DNA of 43,846 bases from positions 1 through 43,846 of IMG/VR virus record IMGVR_UViG_3300014720_000004, one strand, 5' to 3'. This stretch comes from a virus. Below the pieces are notes generated by a model that did not search any database, was not told the origin of the DNA, and saw only the letters and a program-made list of their open reading frames with translations. Below, in pieces: positions 257 through 43,846 of this stretch (positions within the stretch are counted from its first letter, which is position 1; the number at the start of each line of letters is the position of its first letter). The translations under genes were made by a program, and so were the position numbers.

Positions 257-2584
257 GTGTCCACCCCCCTTTTGAATCCGCCTCTGCAGACCTCCAGGGC
301 GCGGTTGCAAGCCATGAATCGCGAATCAGCGACCGAGTACGGCCGGGCCTTGTTTGTGCAGCACGGTGAGCCCCTGGCCCAGGCGCTTGATGCGCTGCTG
401 ACCCGTTTTGTGCTGGATCCCAGCATTGCCGGACCCCATTACTGCGCCCTGCCTTTGCTGCTGCACTTTGCAAACCGTGGCGTCAGGCCCGTGGCAGCAG
501 TTGCCCTGGCCAAAGTGCTCGATACCCTGTCGCGCCGGCACACGCATCGCCGGCTTGCTGGTGCAATCGGCCGGGCCATCGAAGACGAGGTGAAGGCTGG
601 CCGCATCGCTGCCCACGATCAGGACGTGCTGCGGCTGCTGAAGCGCCACGAGGGCAATCGCGCCGTCGTGGACCAGCGCACCCTGCGGGCCCTGCAGTTG
701 CACCACGGGGCCTGGACCACAACCGATCGGTTTGAGGTGGGTGGCCTGCTGCTCGAGCTGGTGGCCAGCACCACCGGCATCGTGCGGCTGGTGCGCCAGG
801 CAATCCGCGGCCGCTGGACGCTGATGGTGGAGGCCACCGAGGCCAGCCTTGAGCTGATCCGCAGCACCCCGGCCCACCAGAGCTCACCGGCGCAGACGCC
901 TGAGCTGGAGCCACCGCCAACTTGGTGCAGCCACGAGGGGCTGGTCAGCCGCCGCGATGGGCTCAGCCTCGATTACCTCGAGCGCGCTGACCTGGGCCAG
1001 GCCCTGCAGGTGGTGAACCATTTGCAGCAGCAGGCCCTCACCGTTGACCCATGGATGGCACGGGTGCAGGCCGAAGCCTGGGCCAGCAATCTGCACGGTT
1101 TGTACACGGTTTCCAGGGACCCCCAGCAGGCGCCGCCGCGGCCTGAAAGCGACGAGGACCGTCAAGCCTGGCGGCAGTGGAAACGAGCAGCAGTCGAGGC
1201 CTGGGCCGAGGAGCGCAAGAACAAGAGCGCCCGGTTGCGTATCCAGGCAGCTCTGGATCAGTGCCTGGCGGTGGCCGGCAAGCCGATCTGGTTTCGCTAC
1301 GACCTTGACTTCCGAGGGCGGATCTACAGCAGCAACAGGTATGTCACCCACCAGGGCCCCGACCACGAGAAAGCGGCGATCAGCTTTCTGCAGGGCTACC
1401 CCTGCGACGTTGAGGGCGCCGAGTGGATCCTCAAGGCCGCGGCCGGACACTGGGGGCTGGGCCGAGCCAGCTGGAAGGACCGGCTGCAGTGGGGCAGAGA
1501 CAACAGCGACCGGTTGGTGGCCATTGCCGAGGCCCCGCTTGATCGAACCGAGTTGTGGCGCGTGGCCAGCGACCCGTGGCAGCTGCTGCAGATGGCCCGG
1601 GCCTGGGCGCAGTGGCTGCAAGACCCGAACACGCCCATCACGGTGCCGATCCGTTTTGATCAGACCACCAGCGGGTTGGGCATCGCCGCGGCCCTGGTGC
1701 GCGACCGGCAGCTAGCACGCGACGCCAACGTGATCGGCACCACACGCCACGACATCTACCTGGCCGTGGCTGCAGACCTGTTGAAGGTGCTGCGCCTTGA
1801 CCTAGAAGCCGGCACCATCAGCGAGCAGCGTCATGCAGCCCAGTGGCTTGAGCTGGGCATTGACCGCAGCCTGGTCAAAGGACCGGTGATGAGCTCGATC
1901 TATGGGGCCCAGTACCGCTCGCTGTTTGACGGGCTGGCTGATTTCCTGGTTGAGCGTGTTGAGCTGAAGCACGCCGGCGACTACGAGCGGGTGATCGTGC
2001 TCCCGGCTCGCTACCTGACAACACGGTTGCAGGAGCTGCTCAAGCCGCGCCTGGCGCCGCTGCTGCAGCTCAAGCGCTGGCTTGAAACGATCAGCGGCAC
2101 CCTGATCAAGCGGCAGGAGCCGATCAGGTGGACCTCGCCATCAGGGTTCCCGGTGGTGCTGGCCGCCAAGCAGCAGGTGAACGCCCCTGCGCACACCCTG
2201 CTGCACGGCAGCCGGGGCTGGCGAACGCCTGACAGCGAACTGCGCAGGAACGAACTGAGCGCCCGCGCCACCAACCGGGGCATCACAGCCAACTTTGTGC
2301 ACTCGTTTGACGCGGCTCTGGCTCATGCCGTCATCTGCAGGACTGAAGGTGTGGGGATGCAGGTGCTGCCGAATCACGATTGCTTTGCTGCCGTGCCGGC
2401 TCGGGCTGGGTGGCTGCACCAAACGCTGCACCAAGAGCTGCGGACTCTGTACTTGACGGACTGGCTGCAGGCGATTGCCGCTGAGACTGCCAGTCACAGC
2501 AGCGTTAACGGCCTGCCACCTCCGCCAGCAGCGGGCACGCTCGAGCCCGGGCAGGTCGGCCAGAACCCCTATTGCTTTTCCTAG
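257..2584 (+). CDS. T7-like single-subunit DNA-directed RNA polymerase
   Basis: This phage RNA polymerase would transcribe the middle and late phage genes from phage-specific promoters. It has 775 residues from a GTG start at 257, with a GGGAG ribosome-binding site about ten bases upstream. A downstream ATG at 314 is an alternative start. T7 RNAP is 883 residues. All catalytic landmarks are visible: the RYDLDFRGRIY block, motif A with RFDQTTSG (Asp about 468), motif B RSLVKGPVMSSIYG (Lys about 541, Tyr about 549) and the NHDCFAAVP motif C (Asp about 708). The wording of these motifs resembles cyanopodovirus enzymes more than T7. It lies next to attL, so it is the first gene on the left of the prophage and the farthest from the integrase. 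The reading frame is intact. Confidence 0.97.
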   Translation: MSTPLLNPPLQTSRARLQAMNRESATEYGRALFVQHGEPLAQALDALLTRFVLDPSIAGPHYCALPLLLHFANRGVRPVAAVALAKVLDTLSRRHTHRRLAGAIGRAIEDEVKAGRIAAHDQDVLRLLKRHEGNRAVVDQRTLRALQLHHGAWTTTDRFEVGGLLLELVASTTGIVRLVRQAIRGRWTLMVEATEASLELIRSTPAHQSSPAQTPELEPPPTWCSHEGLVSRRDGLSLDYLERADLGQALQVVNHLQQQALTVDPWMARVQAEAWASNLHGLYTVSRDPQQAPPRPESDEDRQAWRQWKRAAVEAWAEERKNKSARLRIQAALDQCLAVAGKPIWFRYDLDFRGRIYSSNRYVTHQGPDHEKAAISFLQGYPCDVEGAEWILKAAAGHWGLGRASWKDRLQWGRDNSDRLVAIAEAPLDRTELWRVASDPWQLLQMARAWAQWLQDPNTPITVPIRFDQTTSGLGIAAALVRDRQLARDANVIGTTRHDIYLAVAADLLKVLRLDLEAGTISEQRHAAQWLELGIDRSLVKGPVMSSIYGAQYRSLFDGLADFLVERVELKHAGDYERVIVLPARYLTTRLQELLKPRLAPLLQLKRWLETISGTLIKRQEPIRWTSPSGFPVVLAAKQQVNAPAHTLLHGSRGWRTPDSELRRNELSARATNRGITANFVHSFDAALAHAVICRTEGVGMQVLPNHDCFAAVPARAGWLHQTLHQELRTLYLTDWLQAIAAETASHSSVNGLPPPPAAGTLEPGQVGQNPYCFS

Positions 2585-6274: not shown

Positions 6275-6549
6275 CTGACCCCACCCCACTGAGCCCCGCC
6301 GCGCAGGCGGTGCTGGATGCAGCGCTTGCTGTCGAAGACGAGTGGGACACGGAATCAATGATCGCCGCCGCCCTGCGTGCTGCTGCGGATCAGGTGCTGC
6401 CGGCAGAGCGTAAGCCCAGCGCGGACTCTGACTATCACTTGATGAACTGGACTAAATTGCTCGATCAGTATTACCAACGGCAGCAGGCCCGCGCCGAGTT
6501 CTTCGCCATCGCCGCCGAGCTGGAGGGGGCCAATGAAAGCTCTGATTGA
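6271..6549 (+). CDS. Small hypothetical protein
   Basis: This 92-aa protein starts with GTG, coupled to the preceding stop. It is alanine-rich and helical (SPAAQAVLDAALAVEDEW). Phages often carry similar short helical proteins of unknown role near early genes. Its 3' end overlaps the exonuclease gene by 17 bases. Confidence 0.55.
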   Translation: MTDPTPLSPAAQAVLDAALAVEDEWDTESMIAAALRAAADQVLPAERKPSADSDYHLMNWTKLLDQYYQRQQARAEFFAIAAELEGANESSD

Positions 6550-7273
6550 CGCAGAGTATTACCTCTACCGGGCCGCGGCTGGCAGCGAGTTTGAGGTCGA
6601 GTGGGCCGACGACGATTGGACCTACCTCTGTCGGCACGGTGATGCACAGGCTCTGTTTCAGGACACTATTGGCGAGTTCCGCGACACCTTGCCCGATCAC
6701 CAGCCGGTGCTGGTCTTTGGGGATCGGGTGTCGTTTCGCTATGGGGTGTGGCCCCAATACAAGGGCAACCGCAGAAAGTACCGCCGACCCGCCGGCTACG
6801 GGCAGCTGGTGGAGTGGGTGAGCAAGGCGGCCCCGGCCCGTGGCTGGGAGGTGGCCAAGCTCACCGACGTGGAAGGAGACGACGTGCTTGGCATCCTCCA
6901 CGAGGAGGGCGATGTCATCGTGTCGGTTGACAAGGACATGCTGACCCTGCCTGGCCTCCACCTGCGTGATGGCGAGATGGTCGAAGTGACCAAGGTTGAG
7001 GCCGACCGCAACTTCTTTGTCCAGGTGCTCACCGGGGACGCCAGCGACAATTACCCAGGCTGCCCTGGCTACGGTCCGGTGACTGCGCAGAAGGCCCTGG
7101 CTGGTTGCACTGCAGAGCTGCAGATGTGGCAGGAGGTGCTCAAGGCCTTTGAGAAGAAAGGCTTTGGCGAACCCTACGCGCTGGCCCAGGCCCGCTGTGC
7201 GCGCATCCTGCGGCCGGGGGAGTACGACATGACGGCCGGGGCTCCCCTGCTATGGAGTCCACCGGTAGCCTGA
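6533..7273 (+). CDS. gp6-like 5'-3' exonuclease (FLAP/PIN fold)
   Basis: This is a 246-aa nuclease of the T7 gp6 / FEN family. It would remove RNA primers, degrade host DNA and process recombination ends. Metal-binding residues are visible: Asp7 at the N-terminus, EGDD near 114-117, SVDKDM near 131-136 and GDASDN near 168-173. The last is followed by the helix-hairpin-helix PGCPGYGPVTAQK that grips duplex DNA. The QYKGNRRKYRRP arch matches the family. With SSB and RusA it forms a recombination set, so most replication enzymes would have to come from the host. Confidence 0.93.
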   Translation: MKALIDAEYYLYRAAAGSEFEVEWADDDWTYLCRHGDAQALFQDTIGEFRDTLPDHQPVLVFGDRVSFRYGVWPQYKGNRRKYRRPAGYGQLVEWVSKAAPARGWEVAKLTDVEGDDVLGILHEEGDVIVSVDKDMLTLPGLHLRDGEMVEVTKVEADRNFFVQVLTGDASDNYPGCPGYGPVTAQKALAGCTAELQMWQEVLKAFEKKGFGEPYALAQARCARILRPGEYDMTAGAPLLWSPPVA

Positions 7274-11632: not shown

Positions 11633-12880
11633 GTGGCCAATCTCACCAACCTCGACCGTCTTGGTCAAATCAAACAGGCCGGAGCAACTGATGCTCTGTT
11701 CCTGAAACTCGGCATGACCGAGGTGCTCGATGCCTTTGATCGCAAGTGCGTGTTCAAGGGCAAGGTCAAAGAGCGCAACATCCGCGGCGGCAAGTCCGCT
11801 GCCTTCCAGGTCAGCGGCCGCAACACGGCGGCTTACCACGTGCCCGGGACTCCGATTCTCGGGGACACCAGCCCCACCACTTCGTCCGACCGCAACGAGC
11901 GGATCATCAATCTCGATGGCCTGCTGGTCGCCAGCGAGGTGATCTATGAGCTGGACGAGCTCATGAACTACGTCGATGTCCGCCAGGACGTGACGCATCA
12001 GCTGGGTCAAGCCCTGGCCCGCGAGTGGGACGCCCGTGCCGCCCGCGTGCTGTACGGCGCTGCCAAGACCACCACTGAGCCCCTGAACAGCGCAACCGCT
12101 TCTGTCACCGGTTCGATTGCCACCACCACCCTGACCGTCACCGCGGTCGGCAGTGGCCGGCTGTCGCCTGGCATGACCATCAGTGGCAGCGGTGTGACGG
12201 CAGGCACCCAGATCGTCTCCCAGCTGACTCAGACCAGCGGCGATGCCCCCGGCCTGCGTGGCACCTATCAGGTGACCGTATCGCAGACCGCTGCCAGCAC
12301 CACCGTCACCGCCACCGGAGGCCCCAACTCCGGCCGCGTCGGCCAAAGCGAGCAGCTGTCGGGCGGCTACGCCGCTGCCAGCAAAAACGCCAAGGGCGAT
12401 GAGCTGATCTCCATGATCAGCAGCCTGAAGGTGAAGATGCTGGCCAAGGACATTCCTGTGGACGACATGATCTGTGTCGTGCGCCCTGAGGAGTACGACC
12501 TGCTGCTGGATTCCACCCGTGCCATCAACGCTGACTTCAATGGAGCCAGCGGCGAGAACGGCAGCTTTGCCAGTGGCAACGTGCTGCGGGTGAAGGGCAT
12601 CCCGATCATCTGGAGCAACCACGTCTCCCAGTCGGCGTACACCAACAACGCGACCTACGACAAGAACACTGACTACGAGCAGGATCTGTCGAAGTGCCGG
12701 GCCATCATGTTCCACCGTGATGCCATCGGCGTGCTGACCCTGCGGGACATCGGCCTGCAGATCACCTCTGCCGGCGGCGACTTCAACATCCAGTATCAGG
12801 CCACCCTGATGGTCGCCCGCATGGCGATCGGCATGGCAAAGCTCCGCCCTGAGTGCGCTGGCGTGATCGAGGTGCCTTAA
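11633..12880 (+). CDS. Major capsid protein, T7 gp10-like, with inserted beta domain
   Basis: This 415-aa HK97-fold shell protein starts with GTG. The N-terminal [36 protein letters not shown] and the [18 protein letters not shown] region match the gp10 family. The C-terminal part carries [12 protein letters not shown] and [20 protein letters not shown]. Between about residues 150 and 235 there is a Thr/Ser/Gly-rich stretch with the pattern [19 protein letters not shown] and [13 protein letters not shown]. This resembles small beta domains of phage tail and surface proteins and interrupts the capsid fold at a site likely to face outward. A terminator follows. Confidence 0.95.
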
Positions 12881-28885: not shown

Positions 28886-29632
28886 GTGCCCTTCTCCTAT
28901 GCCCAGTACACAGGGAACGGGTCCACGACGACCTTTTCGGTTCCGTTCCCGTACCTGCTGAAGTCGCACGTCAAGCTCTACACCGGCTTCAACATCCTTA
29001 ATGGCACCTTCTCCGCCCTGCTGGTGGATGGGGTCGATTACACCTGGACCAGCGGCACCCAGGTGCAGGCCACGGCGGCGCCTGCCAACGGCGTAACGCT
29101 GACCGTCATCCGCGACACGCCCGACTCCTCGCAGCTGGTGCCGTGGCAAGACGGTTCCAACCTGATCGCCGATGACATGAACATCGCCGATCTGCAAAAC
29201 CTGTACGTGGTGCAGGAACAGCAGGACCGAAACGATGCCGCTGTCACCCAGCTGGGCAGCAGCGCCACGGCAGCGGCTGCATCGGCAGCTGCATCGGCAG
29301 CATCAGCCGCCAGCGCTCAATCTCAAGCGACATCTGCAATCACTGCAGCCAACGCTGCGACTGCAGCCGCCAATGCCGTGACAACCACGGCCAACGCGGC
29401 GGCGGCGGCGGCCAACGCGGCAGTGCAAATTGCCACTGCTGCTGCAATGCCGCAAAGCACGATTCAAGTGCTTGAACCACTTGAAATCCTGCTGAACGCA
29501 GCGTTCAGCGTGGGAGTACCTGGCCGCATCCCATTTGGGGTGGGGCCGGTGCTTTTGCCTGGCGCTGCGTTTTCTGGCATCAGCCAGAGCGATTACTACC
29601 CCATTCACCACGCTTCAGGGAGCTTCTGCTGA
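28886..29632 (+). CDS. Tail fibre protein with T7 gp17-type N-terminal domain
   Basis: This 248-aa protein starts with GTG. Residues 1-115 (MPFSYAQYTGNGSTTTFSVP, then VDYTWTSGTQVQATAAP and IADLQNLYVVQEQQ) form the T7 tail-fibre attachment domain. An alanine/serine-rich repeat (about 130-190) should make a triple coiled stalk. The last 42 residues (FSVGVPGRIPFGVGPV onward, ending SGSFC) recur at the end of the protein at 29829-30095. The fibre is short and has no receptor-binding head, so it probably acts as an adaptor for the following proteins, including the DGR-diversified adhesin. Confidence 0.9.
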   Translation: MPFSYAQYTGNGSTTTFSVPFPYLLKSHVKLYTGFNILNGTFSALLVDGVDYTWTSGTQVQATAAPANGVTLTVIRDTPDSSQLVPWQDGSNLIADDMNIADLQNLYVVQEQQDRNDAAVTQLGSSATAAAASAAASAASAASAQSQATSAITAANAATAAANAVTTTANAAAAAANAAVQIATAAAMPQSTIQVLEPLEILLNAAFSVGVPGRIPFGVGPVLLPGAAFSGISQSDYYPIHHASGSFC

Positions 29633-29828: not shown

Positions 29829-30095
29829 ATGGCCAACTTTGCTTTTAATCCGTTCACGGGCACATTCAGCCCCGCAGTGCCGGGGCCTACTGGCCCGGTT
29901 GGCCCTTCTGGTTCAACCGGCTCGGTGCTGCTGGATGAACTGACTGCGATCTATCGCAACGGTTCGTTCTCTGTTGGCACGCCAGGCCAGGTGCCATTTG
30001 GTGTTGGCCCGGTCGTGCCGCCAGGCACAGCGTTTCACTACATCAGTGCGGACGCTTACAACCCCGTTCACCTTCCGTCAGGGAGCTTTTGCTGA
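29829..30095 (+). CDS. Small tail protein sharing the fibre C-terminal module
   Basis: This 88-aa protein has a short collagen-like stretch (GPTGPVGPSGSTGS, about residues 19-32). It is followed by a 42-residue module FSVGTPGQVPFGVGPV...SGSFC that is identical in 27 of 42 positions, by my alignment, to the end of the tail-fibre protein. The shared end suggests a trimer-forming or docking domain used twice in the tail. The stop overlaps the next start. Confidence 0.7.
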   Translation: MANFAFNPFTGTFSPAVPGPTGPVGPSGSTGSVLLDELTAIYRNGSFSVGTPGQVPFGVGPVVPPGTAFHYISADAYNPVHLPSGSFC

Positions 30096-30262
30096 TGGCC
30101 GTACTTCCATCCACAGGGTTTCCGGCCACAGCGCCGGTAGCCGAACCAAGCCTGCAAAAACTGCAGCAATTCGGTCGAGACACGCTGCCAATCGGTCGCC
30201 CAGGTGATCGCAGCTATGGCGGTCGCTCTGTGATCGACCCCACCTCCGCCTCTCACATGTGA
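30095..30262 (+). CDS. Small hypothetical tail-cluster protein (55 aa)
   Basis: This short frame encodes MAVLPSTGFPATAPVAEPSL and continues to residue 55. Its ATG overlaps the preceding TGA and its TGA overlaps the next ATG. That tight coupling in a tail operon is the main support. No motif is recognised. Confidence 0.55.
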   Translation: MAVLPSTGFPATAPVAEPSLQKLQQFGRDTLPIGRPGDRSYGGRSVIDPTSASHM

Positions 30263-30543
30263 TGACCATGGACTTCCGCTTCTTCAAGGCAGATCCCGAG
30301 CCCGGCACCAATGTGCAGTGGCCTGAGCAGGATCCTGGCACTGAGCCCACCTTCACTCTGGTGGCGCTGCAGCGTGATGCAGACCCTGATGCCAACACGC
30401 ACGACGGCTTCGATTACTTCGGCGCCTACGGAGTTGGTGATGACATCGACGCCTGGGCTGGTGGTCAACCAGTGACGGCCATCACCAAGAGCCAGCTGCC
30501 CAATCCCGTCACCTTCTACCCCGCTCCTTTCAACGAGGCCTAA
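30262..30543 (+). CDS. Small hypothetical protein upstream of the DGR target
   Basis: This 93-aa acidic protein begins at the ATG in the TGATG overlap. An in-frame GTG lies one codon upstream. It contains FFKADPEPGTNVQWPEQDPG and ends ITKSQLPNPVTFYPAPFNEA. It sits three bases before the variable adhesin gene and could be its chaperone or an adaptor to the fibre. That role is inference from position only. Confidence 0.6.
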   Translation: MTMDFRFFKADPEPGTNVQWPEQDPGTEPTFTLVALQRDADPDANTHDGFDYFGAYGVGDDIDAWAGGQPVTAITKSQLPNPVTFYPAPFNEA

Positions 30544-30546
30544 CCC

Positions 30547-32085
30547 ATGACTGTCATCACCCCATTGCTCCGCGTTAAGGAGCGGATTGTTGGTCCCAAG
30601 GGGATCTTCAACATCGAGAACGAGTGGTATGGCTACCGCGATCAGTGGCGCTACACCGTGGGCCTGGCCGGCATGTCTGGCTTCGGCATCGGTTGCTGCC
30701 CGCCTGAGCTGTTGCCTGCCACTTTTGCACCGCTGAGCGCTGGCACCTACGACCCGCTGCGCGAGCACCCCCACTTCGGCAACTACATTCACCTGCCGAG
30801 CGCTTCGATCGTGTGCTTCATCCCGGCGCACTACATCGATGTGCAAGCACCGGGTAACACCAACGCGCCGTTCTATGGCACCAAGGTGGTGATCAGTGAC
30901 ACGCAATCGGGCAACGCTGTCCTGCCCAAAGCGTTCACTGATTCAGGCGCCAGCCTGATCGGTGTGTTCGTGGACAAGTACCAGATCTCCAACGGCAAGC
31001 CCGATGGCTCTGGCACCCCCAACCACACCAGCGGCCCCGGCGGCACCCCGCTCACCGGCGGCATTGCGGTCTCCCGTCCGCTGCACTGGCCCGTCAGCCC
31101 CACCACCAAAGACGACGGCGGCACCGATTTCAACAGCCCCTTCAGCCTGTGCAACAGCACCGCGCTGAACAGCGCTGCCGGCACTCCTGCCAACACCCTC
31201 GGTGGCGTGTGGGCCCTGGTCAAGACCCGCGGCGCGGACTTTGCTCCCTGTCCGCTGTGGATCCGCAGTCAGATCGCCTTCCTGTCGCTGGCCCACGCCC
31301 AGGCCCTGCTCGATAGCGGCGGCGCCACGATCGCCGGTGCCACCACCAAGGCGGCCTGGATGGACGTGGCCCCCTACGCGCCCAAGGGCAACAACAACAG
31401 TGGCTCGGACGTGAACAAGTCGAGCCTGCAGTTTGCTCGCACTGACCTGACGGGGCACAACGGCTCGGGCTATGCCGGCCGCAACAACCGCGCCTTCACC
31501 GGCGCTGCTCGCATCAGCGGTGCGTCGGCGGTGGAACACACCACCCACAACGGCCAGCTGAGCGGGATCGTAGACATTCAAGGCAACCAGTGGGAGTGCG
31601 CCCCTGGCCTGACCAACAGCGGCGGCGGCAACGGCGGTTTCCGCCTGTTTCCCAGCAGCGCAGCGTGGACCAACACCACGGGCAATGCCTCGATCACAGG
31701 CGCTACTGGCGTGCTGTCCCTGGCGGCTGAGAGCGGCGCTGCAGCAGATGACGGCATCTGGTTTGGCAGCGCCGGCTGGAGCTACCTGGTGCCCCACAGC
31801 GGTGGCACCTTCCACCCCTCCAGCAGCTTCAGCAACGCCACCAAGCGGGCGATGACGGAGACGTTGATTCCGCGCGAGCTGGGCACCAGTGGCACGCAAA
31901 CCAGCACCAACATCTTTGGTGGTGATGGCGTCTACCGCTCTAGCCCGAACGACCTGCTGCCGGTCGCTGGGGGCTACTGGAACGACCCCGCCAGTGCGGG
32001 AGTGTTCAACGTGGTTCTCGACTTCACTTCCGGTACCGCGGACTACTACCTTGGCGCTCGTGCCGTCCGCCTTCTGGCTGCGTGA
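30547..32085 (+). CDS. DGR target: variable tail adhesin, C-type lectin/FGE-like fold
   Basis: This 512-aa protein ends in the variable region of a diversity-generating retroelement. Its C-terminal half (about 330-512) has the pattern IVDIQGNQWECAPGL and GGDGVYRSSPNDLLPVAGGYW, which resembles the formylglycine-generating-enzyme branch of the C-type lectin fold used by DGR target proteins. The final 45 residues contain the variable repeat (31955-32073). Its variable residues include Tyr, Asp, Phe and Thr where the template encodes mostly Asn. It most likely forms the receptor-binding tip of the tail, as Mtd does in Bordetella phage BPP-1. Its last codons overlap the avd start. Confidence 0.93.
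   Translation: MTVITPLLRVKERIVGPKGIFNIENEWYGYRDQWRYTVGLAGMSGFGIGCCPPELLPATFAPLSAGTYDPLREHPHFGNYIHLPSASIVCFIPAHYIDVQAPGNTNAPFYGTKVVISDTQSGNAVLPKAFTDSGASLIGVFVDKYQISNGKPDGSGTPNHTSGPGGTPLTGGIAVSRPLHWPVSPTTKDDGGTDFNSPFSLCNSTALNSAAGTPANTLGGVWALVKTRGADFAPCPLWIRSQIAFLSLAHAQALLDSGGATIAGATTKAAWMDVAPYAPKGNNNSGSDVNKSSLQFARTDLTGHNGSGYAGRNNRAFTGAARISGASAVEHTTHNGQLSGIVDIQGNQWECAPGLTNSGGGNGGFRLFPSSAAWTNTTGNASITGATGVLSLAAESGAAADDGIWFGSAGWSYLVPHSGGTFHPSSSFSNATKRAMTETLIPRELGTSGTQTSTNIFGGDGVYRSSPNDLLPVAGGYWNDPASAGVFNVVLDFTSGTADYYLGARAVRLLAA
31955..32073 (+). repeat. DGR variable repeat (VR)
   Basis: This segment aligns without gaps to 32495-32613 (offset exactly 540). Of 32 adenines in the template, 18 are replaced here: 6 by G, 8 by T and 4 by C. 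Of the 87 other bases, one differs (T to C at 31967). The last 18 shared bases before position 32070 are G/C-rich and nearly free of template adenines, as expected for the initiation-of-mutagenic-homing region. Alignment is lost at 32074. Confidence 0.97.
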
Positions 32086-32492
32086 GCAGCCATGTGGGGG
32101 AGGCGACAGCCTCCCCTTCTCCACCGGAAGGACTGGATGCCAGGCAAGAGCGCTACTGGCTGATCGAGCGGCGCTGCAAGGATCTCTGCCTCTACCTCGA
32201 CGTTCTCACCAGGAACATGCCGCGGTATGAGAAGTATGTCCTCAGCGCCAAGATGCGTGAGATCGGGTATCTCTGTCTGGAGTTGGCCATTGCCGCCAAC
32301 AAGAAGCAGCACAAGAAAACCGATCTTACCCGCTTCAATGTGCAGCATGAGTTCCTCCGCCAGTTGCTCAACCTGGCAGTGGAGGCCAAGTACATCGAAC
32401 CCAGACGGCACAGAATTGCATCCGAAAAGCTGGACGAAGTAGGCAAATTGCTTGGCGGCTGGCTACGCTCAGAGCTCAGGGCGGACTCCTGA
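32082..32492 (+). CDS. avd: DGR accessory variability determinant (Avd-like)
   Basis: This 136-aa protein starts with GTG overlapping the target stop; an in-frame GTG at 32094 is an alternative. From about residue 22 it is a basic helical bundle: ARQERYWLIERRCKDLCLYL, MPRYEKYVLSAKMREIGYLC, FNVQHEFLRQLLNLAVEAKYI and a final LDEVGKLLGGWLRSEL. The PRYEKY segment and the terminal GxLLGGW helix are typical of Avd proteins. These form pentameric barrels that bind reverse transcriptase and template RNA. Size and position between VR and TR match the Bordetella phage layout. Confidence 0.92.
   Translation: MSSHVGEATASPSPPEGLDARQERYWLIERRCKDLCLYLDVLTRNMPRYEKYVLSAKMREIGYLCLELAIAANKKQHKKTDLTRFNVQHEFLRQLLNLAVEAKYIEPRRHRIASEKLDEVGKLLGGWLRSELRADS
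32097..32116 (+). promoter_or_regulatory. DGR homing hairpin with GACA tetraloop
   Basis: GGGGAGGC-GACA-GCCTCCCC is a perfect 8-bp stem with a tetraloop of the GRNA class, 27 nt after the conserved 3' tract of VR. Hairpin/cruciform structures of this size and loop type lie just downstream of VR in known DGRs and raise homing efficiency. Here the element lies within the first codons of avd. It has no T-run, so it is unlikely to be a simple terminator. Confidence 0.85.
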
Positions 32493-32748
32493 CATGCTGC
32501 CGATCGTTGGGGGCAACTGGAACAACACCGCCAATGCGGGAGTGTTCAACGTGAATCTCAACAACACATCCGGTAACGCGAACAACAACAATGGCGCTCG
32601 TGCCGTCCGACTTTGACACAATCACGCCCAGCGTTGGTTCTCACGGGAACCTTCCGTGCCGTGTTGAAGGGAGGGAGTTCGTCCTTGAGCCTGCGGGCTC
32701 TCAATAGCCGGGAAAGGCGATTCCAGTAGCTCAAGCGACCGTCTCGCC
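32493..32748 (+). ncRNA. Template RNA region of the DGR (TR plus downstream structure)
   Basis: This 256-bp non-coding stretch lies between avd and the reverse transcriptase gene. The TR occupies its first half. The rest (32614-32748) contains hairpins such as GGTTC-N5-GAACC (about 32635-32651) and GAGCC-N4-GGCTC (32687-32700). In the Bordetella system the sequence 3' of TR is needed for RNA recognition and priming. The 3' end of the RNA cannot be set from sequence. Confidence 0.7.
32495..32613 (+). repeat. DGR template repeat (TR)
   Basis: This is the non-coding invariant template for mutagenic retrohoming. In the frame of VR it is built of AAC/AAT codons (runs at 32521-32526, 32540-32546 and 32581-32592). 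Adenine-directed miscopying of such codons can yield many residues but no stop codon. It begins three bases after the avd stop and is expected to be transcribed with avd and the reverse transcriptase gene. Confidence 0.97.
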
Positions 32749-33762
32749 ATGCCCCACAAACTCGGCAACCTCTGGCCCCAAATCGCCAACTACGACGCAC
32801 TGCTCTACGCTTGGAAGGAGGTGCGCAGCGGCAAGGGAACTAAGCGGTTGATCCTCCAATACGAGAGCAACATCGCTATCAATCTTTCACGCTTGGAAGA
32901 GAAGATGCTAAATGGCCGCTACAAGCCGCGGCCGCACTATGAGTTTTGGATCAAAGACCCAAAGCCCCGGCTGATCCAGGCCCCGTTCCTAGAAGATCGC
33001 ATTGTTCAACACGCGGTTTGCAACGCGCTGCGTGTGCCGCTGCAGCAACGGCTGATCGCCCATACCTACAGCTGCCTAATCGGCCGCGGTACACACCGCT
33101 GCAGCAACGAACTGCAGAAGTATCTACGCAATCCCAGGTGGAAGTATTACCTCGGTCTGGACATCAGCAAGTTCTTTTACAGCATCAACCACAAGGCGCT
33201 GTATGCGGAGATGTGTCGCCACATCAAATGCAAGCCCACGCTGAAGTTGTTGTGGCAGTACATCACGGTGAACGGCGGTGACTGCGGCATCCCGATCGGG
33301 GCAAGCACCAGCCAGATTATGGCCAACATGGCGCTCAACCCTCTCGATCACTTCGCCAAGCGCGAGCTGAAGCTGAACACCTACCTGCGCTACTGCGACG
33401 ACATGATTGCCCTGTTTGAGACAGCGGCCGAAGCACACGCTGCGCACCGGGCCATGGACGCCAAAGTGCAAGAGCTGGGCCTCAGGCTCAACAGCAAGAG
33501 TGGGGTGGGCTGGATTGCCGATGGCGTGGACTGGGTGGGCTATCGGCACTGGGTCCACTACAAGCTGATTCGCAAGCGGGCGATTAAACGGCTGAAACGC
33601 AAAGCCAAGGGCGGCTGCAGCCTGCAGACGACGATGGCCTACCTGAGCCATGCCAAGGACACATCAAGTTTGAAGCACGTTGCTGGAGTGTTGTGGCGAG
33701 CCAACCCCGAGCAACGGCCAGAGATCTACGGCTGGGTTTGCCGGCACCGCCGCACCCGATAG
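32749..33762 (+). CDS. DGR reverse transcriptase
   Basis: This 337-aa enzyme copies the template RNA into adenine-mutagenised cDNA. The motifs are complete: KPRLIQAPFLEDRIVQHAV (motif 2 region), YLGLDISKFFYSI with Asp138, GIPIGASTSQIMAN (the G-x3-SQ motif diagnostic of DGR enzymes) and YLRYCDDM with catalytic Asp217 and Asp218. The length is usual for the class. There is no maturase, integrase or RNase H domain, which excludes group II introns and retrotransposons. It sits in the order target, avd, TR, RT on one strand. Confidence 0.97.
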   Translation: MPHKLGNLWPQIANYDALLYAWKEVRSGKGTKRLILQYESNIAINLSRLEEKMLNGRYKPRPHYEFWIKDPKPRLIQAPFLEDRIVQHAVCNALRVPLQQRLIAHTYSCLIGRGTHRCSNELQKYLRNPRWKYYLGLDISKFFYSINHKALYAEMCRHIKCKPTLKLLWQYITVNGGDCGIPIGASTSQIMANMALNPLDHFAKRELKLNTYLRYCDDMIALFETAAEAHAAHRAMDAKVQELGLRLNSKSGVGWIADGVDWVGYRHWVHYKLIRKRAIKRLKRKAKGGCSLQTTMAYLSHAKDTSSLKHVAGVLWRANPEQRPEIYGWVCRHRRTR

Positions 33763-35031: not shown

Positions 35032-35313
35032 GTGCCTGACCTCAGGGAGACACTCGAGCAGATCCACGAGGAGGTTGCCTTTGGGATCTTGGAAGACCTG
35101 CGCAACGGCGACAAGAACGCCCGCCGCGATGCGCTTCAGCTGCTCAAGCAAAACCAGATCAGCACCGCAGCCATGCCTGAGACCCCCACGGCCGACCTGG
35201 CGCGCATGGCTGGCAAGCTGAACTTCCAGACGCTCGAGGACAAGGCCAAGGTGGTGCCGATCCGTCTCGAGGACAAGCTCAGGACAGCAGAGCTCGACGG
35301 CGTTAGCGCCTGA
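35032..35313 (+). CDS. Small terminase subunit, T7 gp18-like
   Basis: This 93-aa protein starts with GTG. It is helical with LEQIHEEVAFGILEDLRNGD and NARRDALQLLKQNQISTAAM, as in short gp18-type DNA maturase A proteins of podoviruses. It should recognise phage DNA and regulate the large subunit. It lies on the opposite strand from the large subunit gene, and the two 3' ends overlap by 11 bases, so the usual gp18-gp19 operon is broken here. Confidence 0.75.
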   Translation: MPDLRETLEQIHEEVAFGILEDLRNGDKNARRDALQLLKQNQISTAAMPETPTADLARMAGKLNFQTLEDKAKVVPIRLEDKLRTAELDGVSA

Positions 35314-37069
35314 TGCCCCCATAGGCCACGGCCTTGGGCTGCGGCCGCCAACCCATTGCCAGCGCGTCGATGCCAGCCCCGGTCTCGTCAAACCAGGCCT
35401 CACGCAACGCGTCATCAATCTCCTCCTGCCGGGCCGCCTGGGCCTTGATCTGATCCTGCGCGGTGGCTTCGACAAAGAAGGCGCAGCCCAGGGCCAACAC
35501 GTCGATGCGGTCATCGAACTGCAGCGCCCCGCGCTCAATCGTGATGCGGCTCATCTGAAACATCAGCGAGCGGGCGTGGCCGGTGTCGGGGTCGCGTTCG
35601 GCGCCGGCCCAGTCCTGCTGGATGACCTCCTGGTTGATCACCAGCCGGTGCTGCTGCACCAGGGGCGCCAGGGTGTCCACGATGCGCCGCTCTTTCTGGC
35701 CTGTAGCCCGCCGCTCTTCAAACGAACAGGGATGCACCTTGTTGACGACCGGCTGCAGCAGGGCGGTGAACATGCCGTCGCCCATGTTGCTCTCAGCCAC
35801 GATCGTGTTGACGTTCCAGCGCTTGGCTTTCTGCGCAAGCAGCTGCAGCACCTCAGCTTCGTAGCCGCGGGTAGTGCCGCCTGACTCGAGCAAGAACAGG
35901 TTGCCGTTCAGCTCGGCGATCACTGCCCAGGCCAGCTCATCGCTGCCGCGGCCAGAGGGGTCCACCGCCAGGATGCAGCGCCACGTTTCGGTGGCCGGCA
36001 CCCAGCCCTGGATCAAAGCAGCGGAGAAGTAGTAGCGATCTGCCCCCAGGCCGACACACGGCAGGCTCTGGATGCGGTGCTCGTTGCCTGAAGACCAGGC
36101 CACCACCTCCGGCAACGCCTTGCCGTCCAGGGGCATGACGATCAGATCTCCCAGCCGGATCGGGTAGCGATCCAGGGTGGACAGCCGGCAGTTGAGCTGA
36201 AACTGCAGTTGCACCGATGCGCGGGTCATGCGCATCTCGCGGCCCATCAACTCAGCGTCGCCAAAGCGCTCCGGGTCAGTTGGCTTGCCTACCAGCTCCG
36301 GGTAGGCCTTGGCCTCCTCCGCCATGCGCGGGTCCAAGTTGCCCTCGTAGCACTCCCACTGGTCCGGGTCATTCGGGTCGGGGTAGCGCGCTGGCCAGTA
36401 GCGAATGGCGTAGTTCCGTTCGCGCACCAGCCGCAGGTACAGCGAAGTCTCCAGGTGCGGTGTGCCAAGGAACATCACCTGCCTGGGCAGCTCCTGGCCT
36501 TGATCTGGCTTGAGGATGGCTTCGAGTTCGGTGACGGCCTGGGCAAGGCGTTCCTGCTTCAGGGGTGTGATCGAGTTGTTCAGGGTCTCGATGTCATCCG
36601 GGATGGCGCAGGTGCAGCGCTTGCCGGTCAGGGCCGGGCTGAGGATGCCCACGGCTCGCACCGAGGGGCTTTGATCCACGATCGCTGGGCCCACGTCAAA
36701 CGCCTTGGTCGAGGACCGTCCATCGGCATTGGGCTCCAGGCAGCGCAGCACGTCGATGTCACGGATGCAGCGCTGCATGAAGGTGGTGATCTCCACCGCC
36801 TTCTCCAGGGTCGAGCCTGGGATCAGGATCTTCTCGTTGAACGGATCAATCCGCAGCCGGTGCAGCGCCCGGAACGCGGCCATGGTCGATTTGGCCACAC
36901 CACGGAAACCGACGGTGATCTGCCGGTCGGGGCCGTTCTCCATCCACTCGCAGATCGCCATCTGCTGCTTGGTGGGCGTGTCGGCCAGGTTCAGCTCCCT
37001 GAGCAGGTAGCAGACGAAATAGGCAAACCGTCCAGGACCCAGTTCTGGCGGGATAGGCGTCCAGGTCAA
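35303..37069 (-). CDS. terL: Large terminase subunit (DNA packaging ATPase/nuclease), T7 gp19-like
   Basis: This 588-aa motor protein pumps DNA into the procapsid. The ATPase domain has Walker A GFRGVAKST (about 54-62) and Walker B AIPDDIE (about 155-161). The coupling motif is VMFLGTPHLETSLY. The nuclease domain carries AVDPSGRGSDELAWAV, ESNMGDGMF and FDDRIDVLALG, matching T7 gp19 closely. The start is TTG at 37069, the only plausible one, since the next in-frame Met is at residue 37. It is encoded on the minus strand downstream of a winged-helix regulator, unlike the late genes it serves. Confidence 0.95.
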   Translation of the reverse strand: MTWTPIPPELGPGRFAYFVCYLLRELNLADTPTKQQMAICEWMENGPDRQITVGFRGVAKSTMAAFRALHRLRIDPFNEKILIPGSTLEKAVEITTFMQRCIRDIDVLRCLEPNADGRSSTKAFDVGPAIVDQSPSVRAVGILSPALTGKRCTCAIPDDIETLNNSITPLKQERLAQAVTELEAILKPDQGQELPRQVMFLGTPHLETSLYLRLVRERNYAIRYWPARYPDPNDPDQWECYEGNLDPRMAEEAKAYPELVGKPTDPERFGDAELMGREMRMTRASVQLQFQLNCRLSTLDRYPIRLGDLIVMPLDGKALPEVVAWSSGNEHRIQSLPCVGLGADRYYFSAALIQGWVPATETWRCILAVDPSGRGSDELAWAVIAELNGNLFLLESGGTTRGYEAEVLQLLAQKAKRWNVNTIVAESNMGDGMFTALLQPVVNKVHPCSFEERRATGQKERRIVDTLAPLVQQHRLVINQEVIQQDWAGAERDPDTGHARSLMFQMSRITIERGALQFDDRIDVLALGCAFFVEATAQDQIKAQAARQEEIDDALREAWFDETGAGIDALAMGWRPQPKAVAYGGIRR

Positions 37070-42158: not shown

Positions 42159-42476
42159 ATGGATCTGGATCAACTGGCGAGAGCTCTCAACGCTTTTGCT
42201 GCATTGGATCCGGCGGTTTTTCAGCTTCATCACGCTCAGCTGTTTGTGGAGGTCGCACGCCGCGGCCATTGCACTTATGCAGAGCTCGAAAAAGAGCTGA
42301 ACCTCACCAACGGCTCGGTGTCTCGCAGTGTGACGGCGCTCTGCGAGGTCAACCGCAACGGCGAGAAGGGGTATCACCTGCTCGAGACCTACAAGGACCC
42401 AGACGAGCCGCGCCGCTACCAGGTGCGGCTGTCAACCAAGGGCAAAAAGCTGCTCAAGCAGCTGCTGGGCAACTGA
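42159..42476 (+). CDS. Winged-helix DNA-binding protein, regulator near integrase
   Basis: This 105-aa protein has HTH residues about 39-60 (TYAELEKELNLTNGSVSRSV), followed by a wing (YHLLETYKDPDEPRRYQVRL) and the MarR-like end STKGKKLLKQLL. It has the same architecture as the leftward regulator, and both have a CCTAGG array directly upstream. This suggests mutual control, comparable in logic to a CI/Cro pair. It lies 41 bases before the integrase start, so it could also act as an excisionase-like control factor. Confidence 0.72.
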   Translation: MDLDQLARALNAFAALDPAVFQLHHAQLFVEVARRGHCTYAELEKELNLTNGSVSRSVTALCEVNRNGEKGYHLLETYKDPDEPRRYQVRLSTKGKKLLKQLLGN

Positions 42477-42517
42477 GCCCGCCATGGCTTTCCACACCAA
42501 CCAACCACCAATCACCC

Positions 42518-43516
42518 ATGTCTGGATCTGTTCGCAAGGCTGCCGATGGCAGCTGGATCGCTGATGTCACGGTTGCCGGCACCCGCAAAACCGGCAAATG
42601 CAAAACCCGCGCCGAGGCCCTGGCCCGCAAGCGCGAGTTCCTCGAGCTGCTGCTCCAGCGCGACGCCCGGCAGGTGCAGCGGTCGCCATTCACCCTCAAG
42701 GAAGCCCGGGAGCTGAGCTTGCGGGTGCGCTGGACCGGCCTGGCCTACGAGCGCACCGCGGCCATGTACTCCAGGCAAGCCGTGGCCTACTTCGGCGATG
42801 AGTTTCCCTGCTGCGAGGTCACGGCCACCCTGGTGGATCGCTGGCGCCAAGAGCTCACCGCCAAGGGCAACCGGCCCAGCACGGTCAACAAGAAGGTGGC
42901 GGCCATCAGGGCCATGCTCAGCGATGCGCACCTGCACGGGCACATCCCTGAGATCCCCAAGATGCCCCGCCAGATGCGCGTGGAGAACACCAGAGACCGG
43001 GTGTTCAGCCCTGAGGAGGTGACAGCCTTCTGCCGCTGCTTCCAGGCCGCTGGTGAGCCCGTCGCGGCCGATCAGCTGGTTTTCATGCTCGAAACCGCCT
43101 GCCGCTGGGGCGAGGTGGAGCGGCTCAAGGGCGAGGACGTGAACCTAGAAAAGGGCAAGGTGACGTTCTGGGCCACCAAAAACGGCAAGCCCAGGTCGGT
43201 GCCCTTGACCCGCCGGGCCGTCGATGCCATTGCCCACCACATGCCCGCCGTGGGCAAGCACCGGGTCTGGCCCTACAGCTACAACCGCTTTGAGTACCTG
43301 TTCAACCGGGCCAAGGAATCCCTCGGCCTGGCGGAAGATCGCGAGTTGCGCATCCACACAACTCGTCACACTTGCGCCAGCCGGCTGGCCGACAAGGGGA
43401 TCGCCACACACAAGCTGATGGCGTTCGGCGGCTGGGAGTCGCTGCAATCCGTGCAGCGGTATCTGCATCACCACACCGACGCCCTGGCCGATTGCGTCGC
43501 TGCCCTCGAAGGCTGA
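42518..43516 (+). CDS. int: Tyrosine recombinase (integrase)
   Basis: This 332-aa site-specific recombinase would join attP to the host tRNA-Tyr site and, with helper proteins, excise the prophage. The N-terminal arm-binding part (1-50) has GSWIADVTVAGTRKTGKCKT. The core-binding domain is about 55-150. The catalytic set is Arg196 (ETACRWGEVERL), a Lys on the beta hairpin (about 221-225), His280 and Arg283 (IHTTRHTC), Trp306 and Tyr315 (SVQRYLHHH). I chose the ATG at 42518 because it follows the CACACCAACCAACC leader; the frame is open further upstream but overlaps the regulator. It lies 207 bp from the right att repeat, the normal place for int. Confidence 0.96.
   Translation: MSGSVRKAADGSWIADVTVAGTRKTGKCKTRAEALARKREFLELLLQRDARQVQRSPFTLKEARELSLRVRWTGLAYERTAAMYSRQAVAYFGDEFPCCEVTATLVDRWRQELTAKGNRPSTVNKKVAAIRAMLSDAHLHGHIPEIPKMPRQMRVENTRDRVFSPEEVTAFCRCFQAAGEPVAADQLVFMLETACRWGEVERLKGEDVNLEKGKVTFWATKNGKPRSVPLTRRAVDAIAHHMPAVGKHRVWPYSYNRFEYLFNRAKESLGLAEDRELRIHTTRHTCASRLADKGIATHKLMAFGGWESLQSVQRYLHHHTDALADCVAALEG

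Positions 43517-43712: not shown

Positions 43713-43846
<134 letters not shown>

Follow-up and report, generated by a model that had tools for sequence, protein, structure and literature searches.

Within positions 30547-33762, IMG/VR record IMGVR_UViG_3300014720_000004 carries a complete diversity-generating retroelement (DGR). The DNA examined runs from position 1 to 43,846 of the record and is called the window here, meaning this whole 43,846-nt stretch. On the plus strand, a target gene is followed by avd, a template repeat (TR) and a gene for reverse transcriptase (RT), and the three reading frames are all intact (Table 1). This is the complete element, with all parts in this order on a single strand, that the preliminary description had proposed from the letters of the DNA alone. 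The variable repeat (VR) at the end of the target gene pairs with TR at an offset of 540 over 123 nt. There are twenty mismatches between them, nineteen at TR adenines and one at a TR thymine (T in TR, C in VR at 31967). Adenines make up 34 of the 123 TR positions, and the bias of the mismatches toward them (Fisher p = 3e-12) rules out a chance repeat as the source of the pair. The preliminary description had VR running from 31955 to 32073; the 3' end was right, but VR starts four bases earlier. An assembly chimera could also be ruled out, as many contigs repeat this arrangement of TR, VR, avd and RT and the window circularises at its ends. The genome is thus a complete 43,723-bp circle, and an IMG/VR contig that is 100% identical over all of its 8,951 nt (L022) spans the junction.

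Avd is recognised in three family libraries (PF22296, E 3.9e-24; phrog_3206 'Avd protein of DGR', E 7.9e-28; NF033474 DivGenRetAVD, 88.8 bits against a cut-off of 80 bits). The RT matches RVT_1 (E 2.5e-18) and phrog_1423 (E 5e-94), and the motifs LDISKFF, GASTSQ and YCDD that had been read from its translation are present. Its best match among solved structures is PDB 8ub7 (E 2e-49), labelled there merely 'reverse transcriptase', which we take to be the DGR RT of Bordetella phage BPP-1; the runner-up is a retron-type/group II RT (6e-16). A placement outside the DGR clade had been named beforehand as grounds for rejecting the element. In the tree the RT falls within that clade, split from group II and Cas1-fused RTs at 100/99 support, and together with the PDB scores this rules out a group II intron or retron RT. 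The machinery is of a known type, which rewrites about 30 bases at the 3' end of its target gene.

VR and TR share a GC-rich tract resembling the initiation of mutagenic homing (IMH) element, with a function predicted here. It is followed by a fixed difference (C in VR, A in TR) that is retained in relatives; this is one fixed VR/TR difference, compared with five in BPP-1 (PMC3240598). Two hairpins come next. In a comparison of thirteen sequences, eleven of them distinct, all fifteen base pairs of the two hairpins are kept in every sequence. Compensatory changes affect two pairs in hairpin 1 and three in hairpin 2, so that in five pairs both partners have changed (15 such cells, compared with 4.3 in shuffles). 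The loop of hairpin 1 is GTGA or ATGA. That of hairpin 2 is GACA, GGCA or GAGA, on stems of differing sequence. Hairpin 2 has the GC-rich stem and 4-nt GRNA loop expected behind the VR of a DGR, and it fits the rule for phage DGRs of a 7-10 bp stem with such a loop (PMC3240598). Hairpin 1 may serve the DNA target or the translation of avd; we have not seen a hairpin over the stop and start codons described. The spacer between TR and RT also covaries, with 93% of cells paired and 56 doubly changed cells against 18 in shuffles, although the structure comes from the very alignment on which it was tested, so that the slid control partly favours it from the outset.

Table 1. Positions of the DGR elements, followed by other features of the window. 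S-SRP02 is a Synechococcus phage.
Feature	Position	Strand	Evidence and remarks
DGR target (variable) protein gene	30547-32085	+	512 aa; 3' VR
VR	31951-32073	+	123 nt, paired with TR; end of target gene
IMH-like GC-rich tract, identical in VR and TR	32053-32069 (TR copy 32593-32609)	+	17 nt, 14 G/C
Hairpin 1	32075-32092	+	TGGCTGC-GTGA-GCAGCCA; loop contains target stop and avd start codons
avd, DGR accessory protein	32082-32492	+	136 aa; GTG start overlaps target stop
Hairpin 2	32097-32116	+	GGGGAGGC-GACA-GCCTCCCC; 8-bp stem, GRNA loop
TR	32491-32613	+	123 nt; strongly conserved among relatives
TR-RNA spacer, conserved covarying structure	32610-32748	+	helix 32611-32619 with 32661-32669
DGR RT	32749-33762	+	337 aa; phrog_1423, RVT_1, tree
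T7 gp17-type tail fibre N-terminal protein	28886-29632	+	PF03906, E 6.8e-24
Small tail-cluster protein	29829-30095	+	48-aa C-terminal module in common with tail fibre protein (60% identity); syntenic in relatives
Small tail-cluster protein	30259-30543	+	syntenic with target in most relatives
Terminal direct repeat	1-123 (= 43724-43846)	+	123 nt; contig closes to circle
T7-like single-subunit RNA polymerase	257-2584	+	phrog_414, E 6e-125; S-SRP02 48%
Tyrosine integrase	42269-43516	+	PF00589, E 5e-20; S-SRP02 68%
Complete tRNA-Thr (GGT)	43713-43784	-	ARAGORN, Rfam
tRNA-Tyr 3' part, attP-like core	43793-43846 (same bases as 70-123)	-	ends at anticodon stem

Variable and template repeats among relatives

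Searching IMG/VR with the RT returned twenty contigs with RT identities of 74-90%, and about twenty IMG/VR contigs carry the same cassette. VR and TR were compared at those loci that include upstream DNA. In nearly all of them, mismatches between the repeats occur at TR adenines only; the exceptions are contig L013, which deviates toward its ends, and a few loci with single T mismatches. When contigs are compared in pairs, 50-81% of the shared TR-adenine columns differ between the VRs, against 0-1% of the other columns, and divergence in the remainder of the target gene is 2-17%. L009 and L017 are a clear case: their VRs differ at 24 of 31 adenine columns and at none of the 82 others, with the upstream gene differing by 2.2%. 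Where templates differ between contigs at non-adenine columns, each VR matches its own TR. Two pairs of contigs with identical or nearly identical upstream sequence (L003/L014 and L011/L012) also have identical VRs, which is what members of one strain should show. The whole cassette has more distant relatives as well (L050-L054, RT identity 52-54%), with GATA-loop hairpins and an adenine bias between VR and TR.

That VR tracks its own TR at non-adenine columns and varies at adenine columns argues for repeated copying from TR to VR, and the restriction of VR divergence to adenine columns in genes that differ by only 2% argues that mutagenic homing was recent. The comparative data indicate RT-dependent mutagenic homing by a recently active DGR.

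Target protein and proposed mechanism

The target gene comes after the T7-type fibre gene and two or three genes for small proteins, and this cluster stays together in relatives, as the preliminary description had anticipated when it placed the target in a tail-fibre cluster. The target has weak matches to the 'tail protein' families phrog_2889 and phrog_5302, its other PHROGs families being of unknown function, and a Pfam search gave no match. A profile built from thirty-one target homologues matches TaqVP (PDB 5VF4) over residues 302-506, the last 200 or so, at E 4e-7. TaqVP is the DGR variable protein of Thermus aquaticus and has a C-type lectin fold (PMC6328139). Judged by this profile the C-terminus is of the lectin type found in DGR targets, which agrees with the lectin-fold variable region of the preliminary description. 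A Foldseek search with the second AlphaFold model of the target placed TaqVP chains at ranks 1-3 (E 0.12-0.39), which we did not count, and hhalign of the target against Mtd, the BPP-1 target, aligned the VR-like core alone, without significance. The target is probably the tail-fibre tip or receptor-binding protein.

Our reading of the locus, to which we give a probability of about 0.93, is a complete, recently active DGR on the BPP-1 plan that diversifies a protein of the tail cluster. Some observations weigh against it. VR variation was measured between populations, the contigs differing in place and time, and not within one. AlphaFold models of the target, built once from 12 homologues and once from 31, were too poor to reveal the lectin fold itself (mean predicted local distance difference test scores of 27 and 39), and the place of the target on the virion and its binding of a receptor are predictions. 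A relic, in which the DGR worked formerly and the VR differences are old, would be favoured by the lone non-adenine mismatch and by relatives that have a target but no RT nearby, which indicate that loss occurs. We consider it very improbable, because between relatives VR follows TR at non-adenine columns and differs at adenine columns alone, the frames show no breaks, and neither hairpin nor the spacer RNA has been lost. It is also improbable that the diversified protein is some other virion or secreted binding protein and not the receptor-binding tip. The target has no close homologue with a solved structure and its match to phage tail proteins is weak; however, it is encoded just after the T7-type fibre gene, travels with that gene and the small tail-cluster proteins, and has its place taken by a replacement in the isolate S-SRP02.

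For an active DGR of this kind, a complex of RT and Avd would copy TR RNA along with its structured spacer, and adenines would be miscopied in the process. The cDNA would then take the place of VR in the target gene, with the IMH tract and the two hairpins behind it as guides, and TR would stay intact. Some 30 bases would be randomised in the lectin-like C-terminus of the tail-cluster protein, giving progeny phage that differ in tip sequence and most likely in receptor specificity. The parts of the element, its adenine bias, its recent homing and the covarying hairpins and RNA are demonstrated at the level of sequence. We infer the enzymology of homing from BPP-1, and the variants would most likely alter host choice.

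Phage backbone, integration and exchange of the tail-tip region

The genome has the single-subunit RNA polymerase, T7-type portal, tubes and fibre N-terminus of T7-like phages, and it also encodes a single-stranded DNA-binding protein, an exonuclease, a scaffold, a capsid protein and TerL. Its backbone is collinear with that of S-SRP02 (MW822601), a Synechococcus phage from a tropical freshwater lake (PMC8790148), through the RNA polymerase, portal, capsid, tubes, integrase, opposite-strand TerL and fibre N-terminus. Unlike the window, S-SRP02 has no annotated RT and no TR/VR pair was found in it; the region between its fibre N-terminus and TerL is unrelated. In both genomes TerL (35303-37069 in the window) lies on the minus strand, opposite to the other structural genes. 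The major capsid protein (11633-12880) can be aligned to its S-SRP02 counterpart in two blocks; the roughly 80 residues between these do not align and may be an inserted domain. A family-A DNA polymerase (PF00476) was not found in the window, in S-SRP02 or in four relatives, and the 246-aa product annotated as 'DNA polymerase I' in S-SRP02 corresponds by homology to the exonuclease of the window (6533-7273). A phage DNA polymerase is thus apparently missing from the lineage; cyanopodoviruses without one are known (PMC9860041). Since none was found, we call the phage T7-like and do not assign it to Autographiviridae, the family under which S-SRP02 is filed in GenBank.

The integrase, the tRNA-Thr and a tRNA-Tyr remnant adjoin. 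Over 42-45 nt the remnant is 98-100% identical to the tRNA-Tyr of Synechococcus phages S-H9-1 and S-BM3. The arrangement looks like an attP with its crossover in tRNA-Tyr; the host attB was not seen. The phage had been described at the outset as a picocyanobacterial podovirus and as temperate. The first label is well supported by the collinearity with S-SRP02, which was isolated on Synechococcus SR-C1, and by the Synechococcus-like remnant, which make a host of this kind probable. The second holds only as far as the integrase and the attP-like site. An integrase is present in eleven of the thirteen searched records that bear the cassette or the backbone (the window and S-SRP02 included), and BPP-1 itself is a temperate podovirus. 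Against this, no lysogeny repressor was recognised among the scanned genes, and a genome scan with the RT, limited to two search patterns, found no close prophage and two distant RTs. In addition, the T7-like cyanophages S-TIP37 and P-SSP7 showed integrase- and attP-driven integration that was rare and occurred without stable lysogens (Shitrit et al.; PMC8776855). The step from an integrase to a lysogen with new host ranges is therefore unsupported, and we think it unlikely that the cassette acts from a stable lysogen, with the integrated phage diversifying its tail tip and releasing variants. Lytic growth is enough for DGR function.

Contigs with a TerL 93% identical to that of the window have several kinds of tail-tip region. 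In L124 and L148, which are incomplete at 16 kb each, the fibre gene lies several kb away and the contigs contain no RT. The RT of three others (L133, L134, L150) is only about 30% identical, and in the tree those of L134 and L150 fall together with BPP-1 brt (97/92). L150 has its own TR/VR pair, with 21 of 22 mismatches at adenines, and its target shares 41% identity with Mtd. On this sequence evidence, the three carry a second, unrelated DGR of BPP-1/Mtd type in nearly the same phage backbone. That such close relatives have either no RT or an unrelated DGR implies that the tail-tip module is swapped. The present cassette also occurs in other backbones, including two with the tube genes reversed (L016, L018). 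In L011 and L012 (69-kb and 34-kb contigs) the cassette has an RT 74% and a target 67% identical, and there is no hit to a T7-like RNA polymerase, which suggests that the module moves between phage types.

Target homologues without an RT of the present type within 2.4 kb downstream were found in eleven contigs. The perfect GRNA-loop hairpin 2 is absent from eight of these (L183, L186, L193, L196, L198, L199, L200, L202) and kept in the rest (L187, L189, L192); that it has mostly gone where no RT is nearby speaks for our reading of the locus. L200 lies on a 42-kb contig with no RT anywhere; the other, shorter contigs could have one elsewhere. Read from their sequences, these RT-less homologues are a natural series of DGR loss. 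We tentatively suggest, at slightly less than even odds, that one lineage of T7-like cyanopodoviruses has an exchangeable tail-tip cassette on the same backbone (this DGR, a BPP-1/Mtd-like DGR or an RT-less tip), with a second covarying hairpin over the stop and start codons for target recognition or control of avd translation.

Comparison with known systems

The RT has 145 matches among annotated phage records, none above 60% identity, and there is no cyanophage among the matches listed (60 of the 145 phage records). In the open-access literature, we found no DGR described in Autographiviridae, T7-like phages, picocyanobacterial phages or cyanopodoviruses. Metagenome-wide DGR surveys (PMC8144416) may include such contigs without describing them. 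A survey of cellular DGRs in cyanobacteria found none in Synechococcus or Prochlorococcus genomes and none assignable to prophages (PMC7517822). Those cyanobacterial DGRs have lectin-fold targets and come from the probable host phylum of the window phage, but they are cellular. TaqVP is homologous to the target by profile in its C-terminal region, where 200 residues align and the rest of the 512 aa is uncovered.

If the element works as read, these viruses can anticipate receptor changes in primary producers that are very abundant. One backbone with the present DGR, with another DGR and with none, along with RT-less targets whose hairpin has decayed, forms a natural set in which the costs and benefits of targeted hypermutation could be tested in the wild from reads. 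S-SRP02 offers a matching isolate without a DGR for comparison in the laboratory.

The closest known plan is that of BPP-1 (mtd-avd-TR-brt), which has the same gene order and similar spacing, with TR directly after avd. Both systems have adenine-specific VR changes and a GRNA-loop hairpin after VR, and both belong to podoviruses with a tRNA attachment site (tRNA-His according to the BPP-1 record). They differ in that the BPP-1 RT is about 36% identical over 78% and lies on a different branch of the tree, the target and Mtd have no homology outside the VR-like core, BPP-1 has one hairpin where the window has two, and the phage backbones are not the same. The combination of a podovirus, a DGR and a tRNA attachment site is thus already known from BPP-1, and it is the phage lineage and the probable host group alone that look new.

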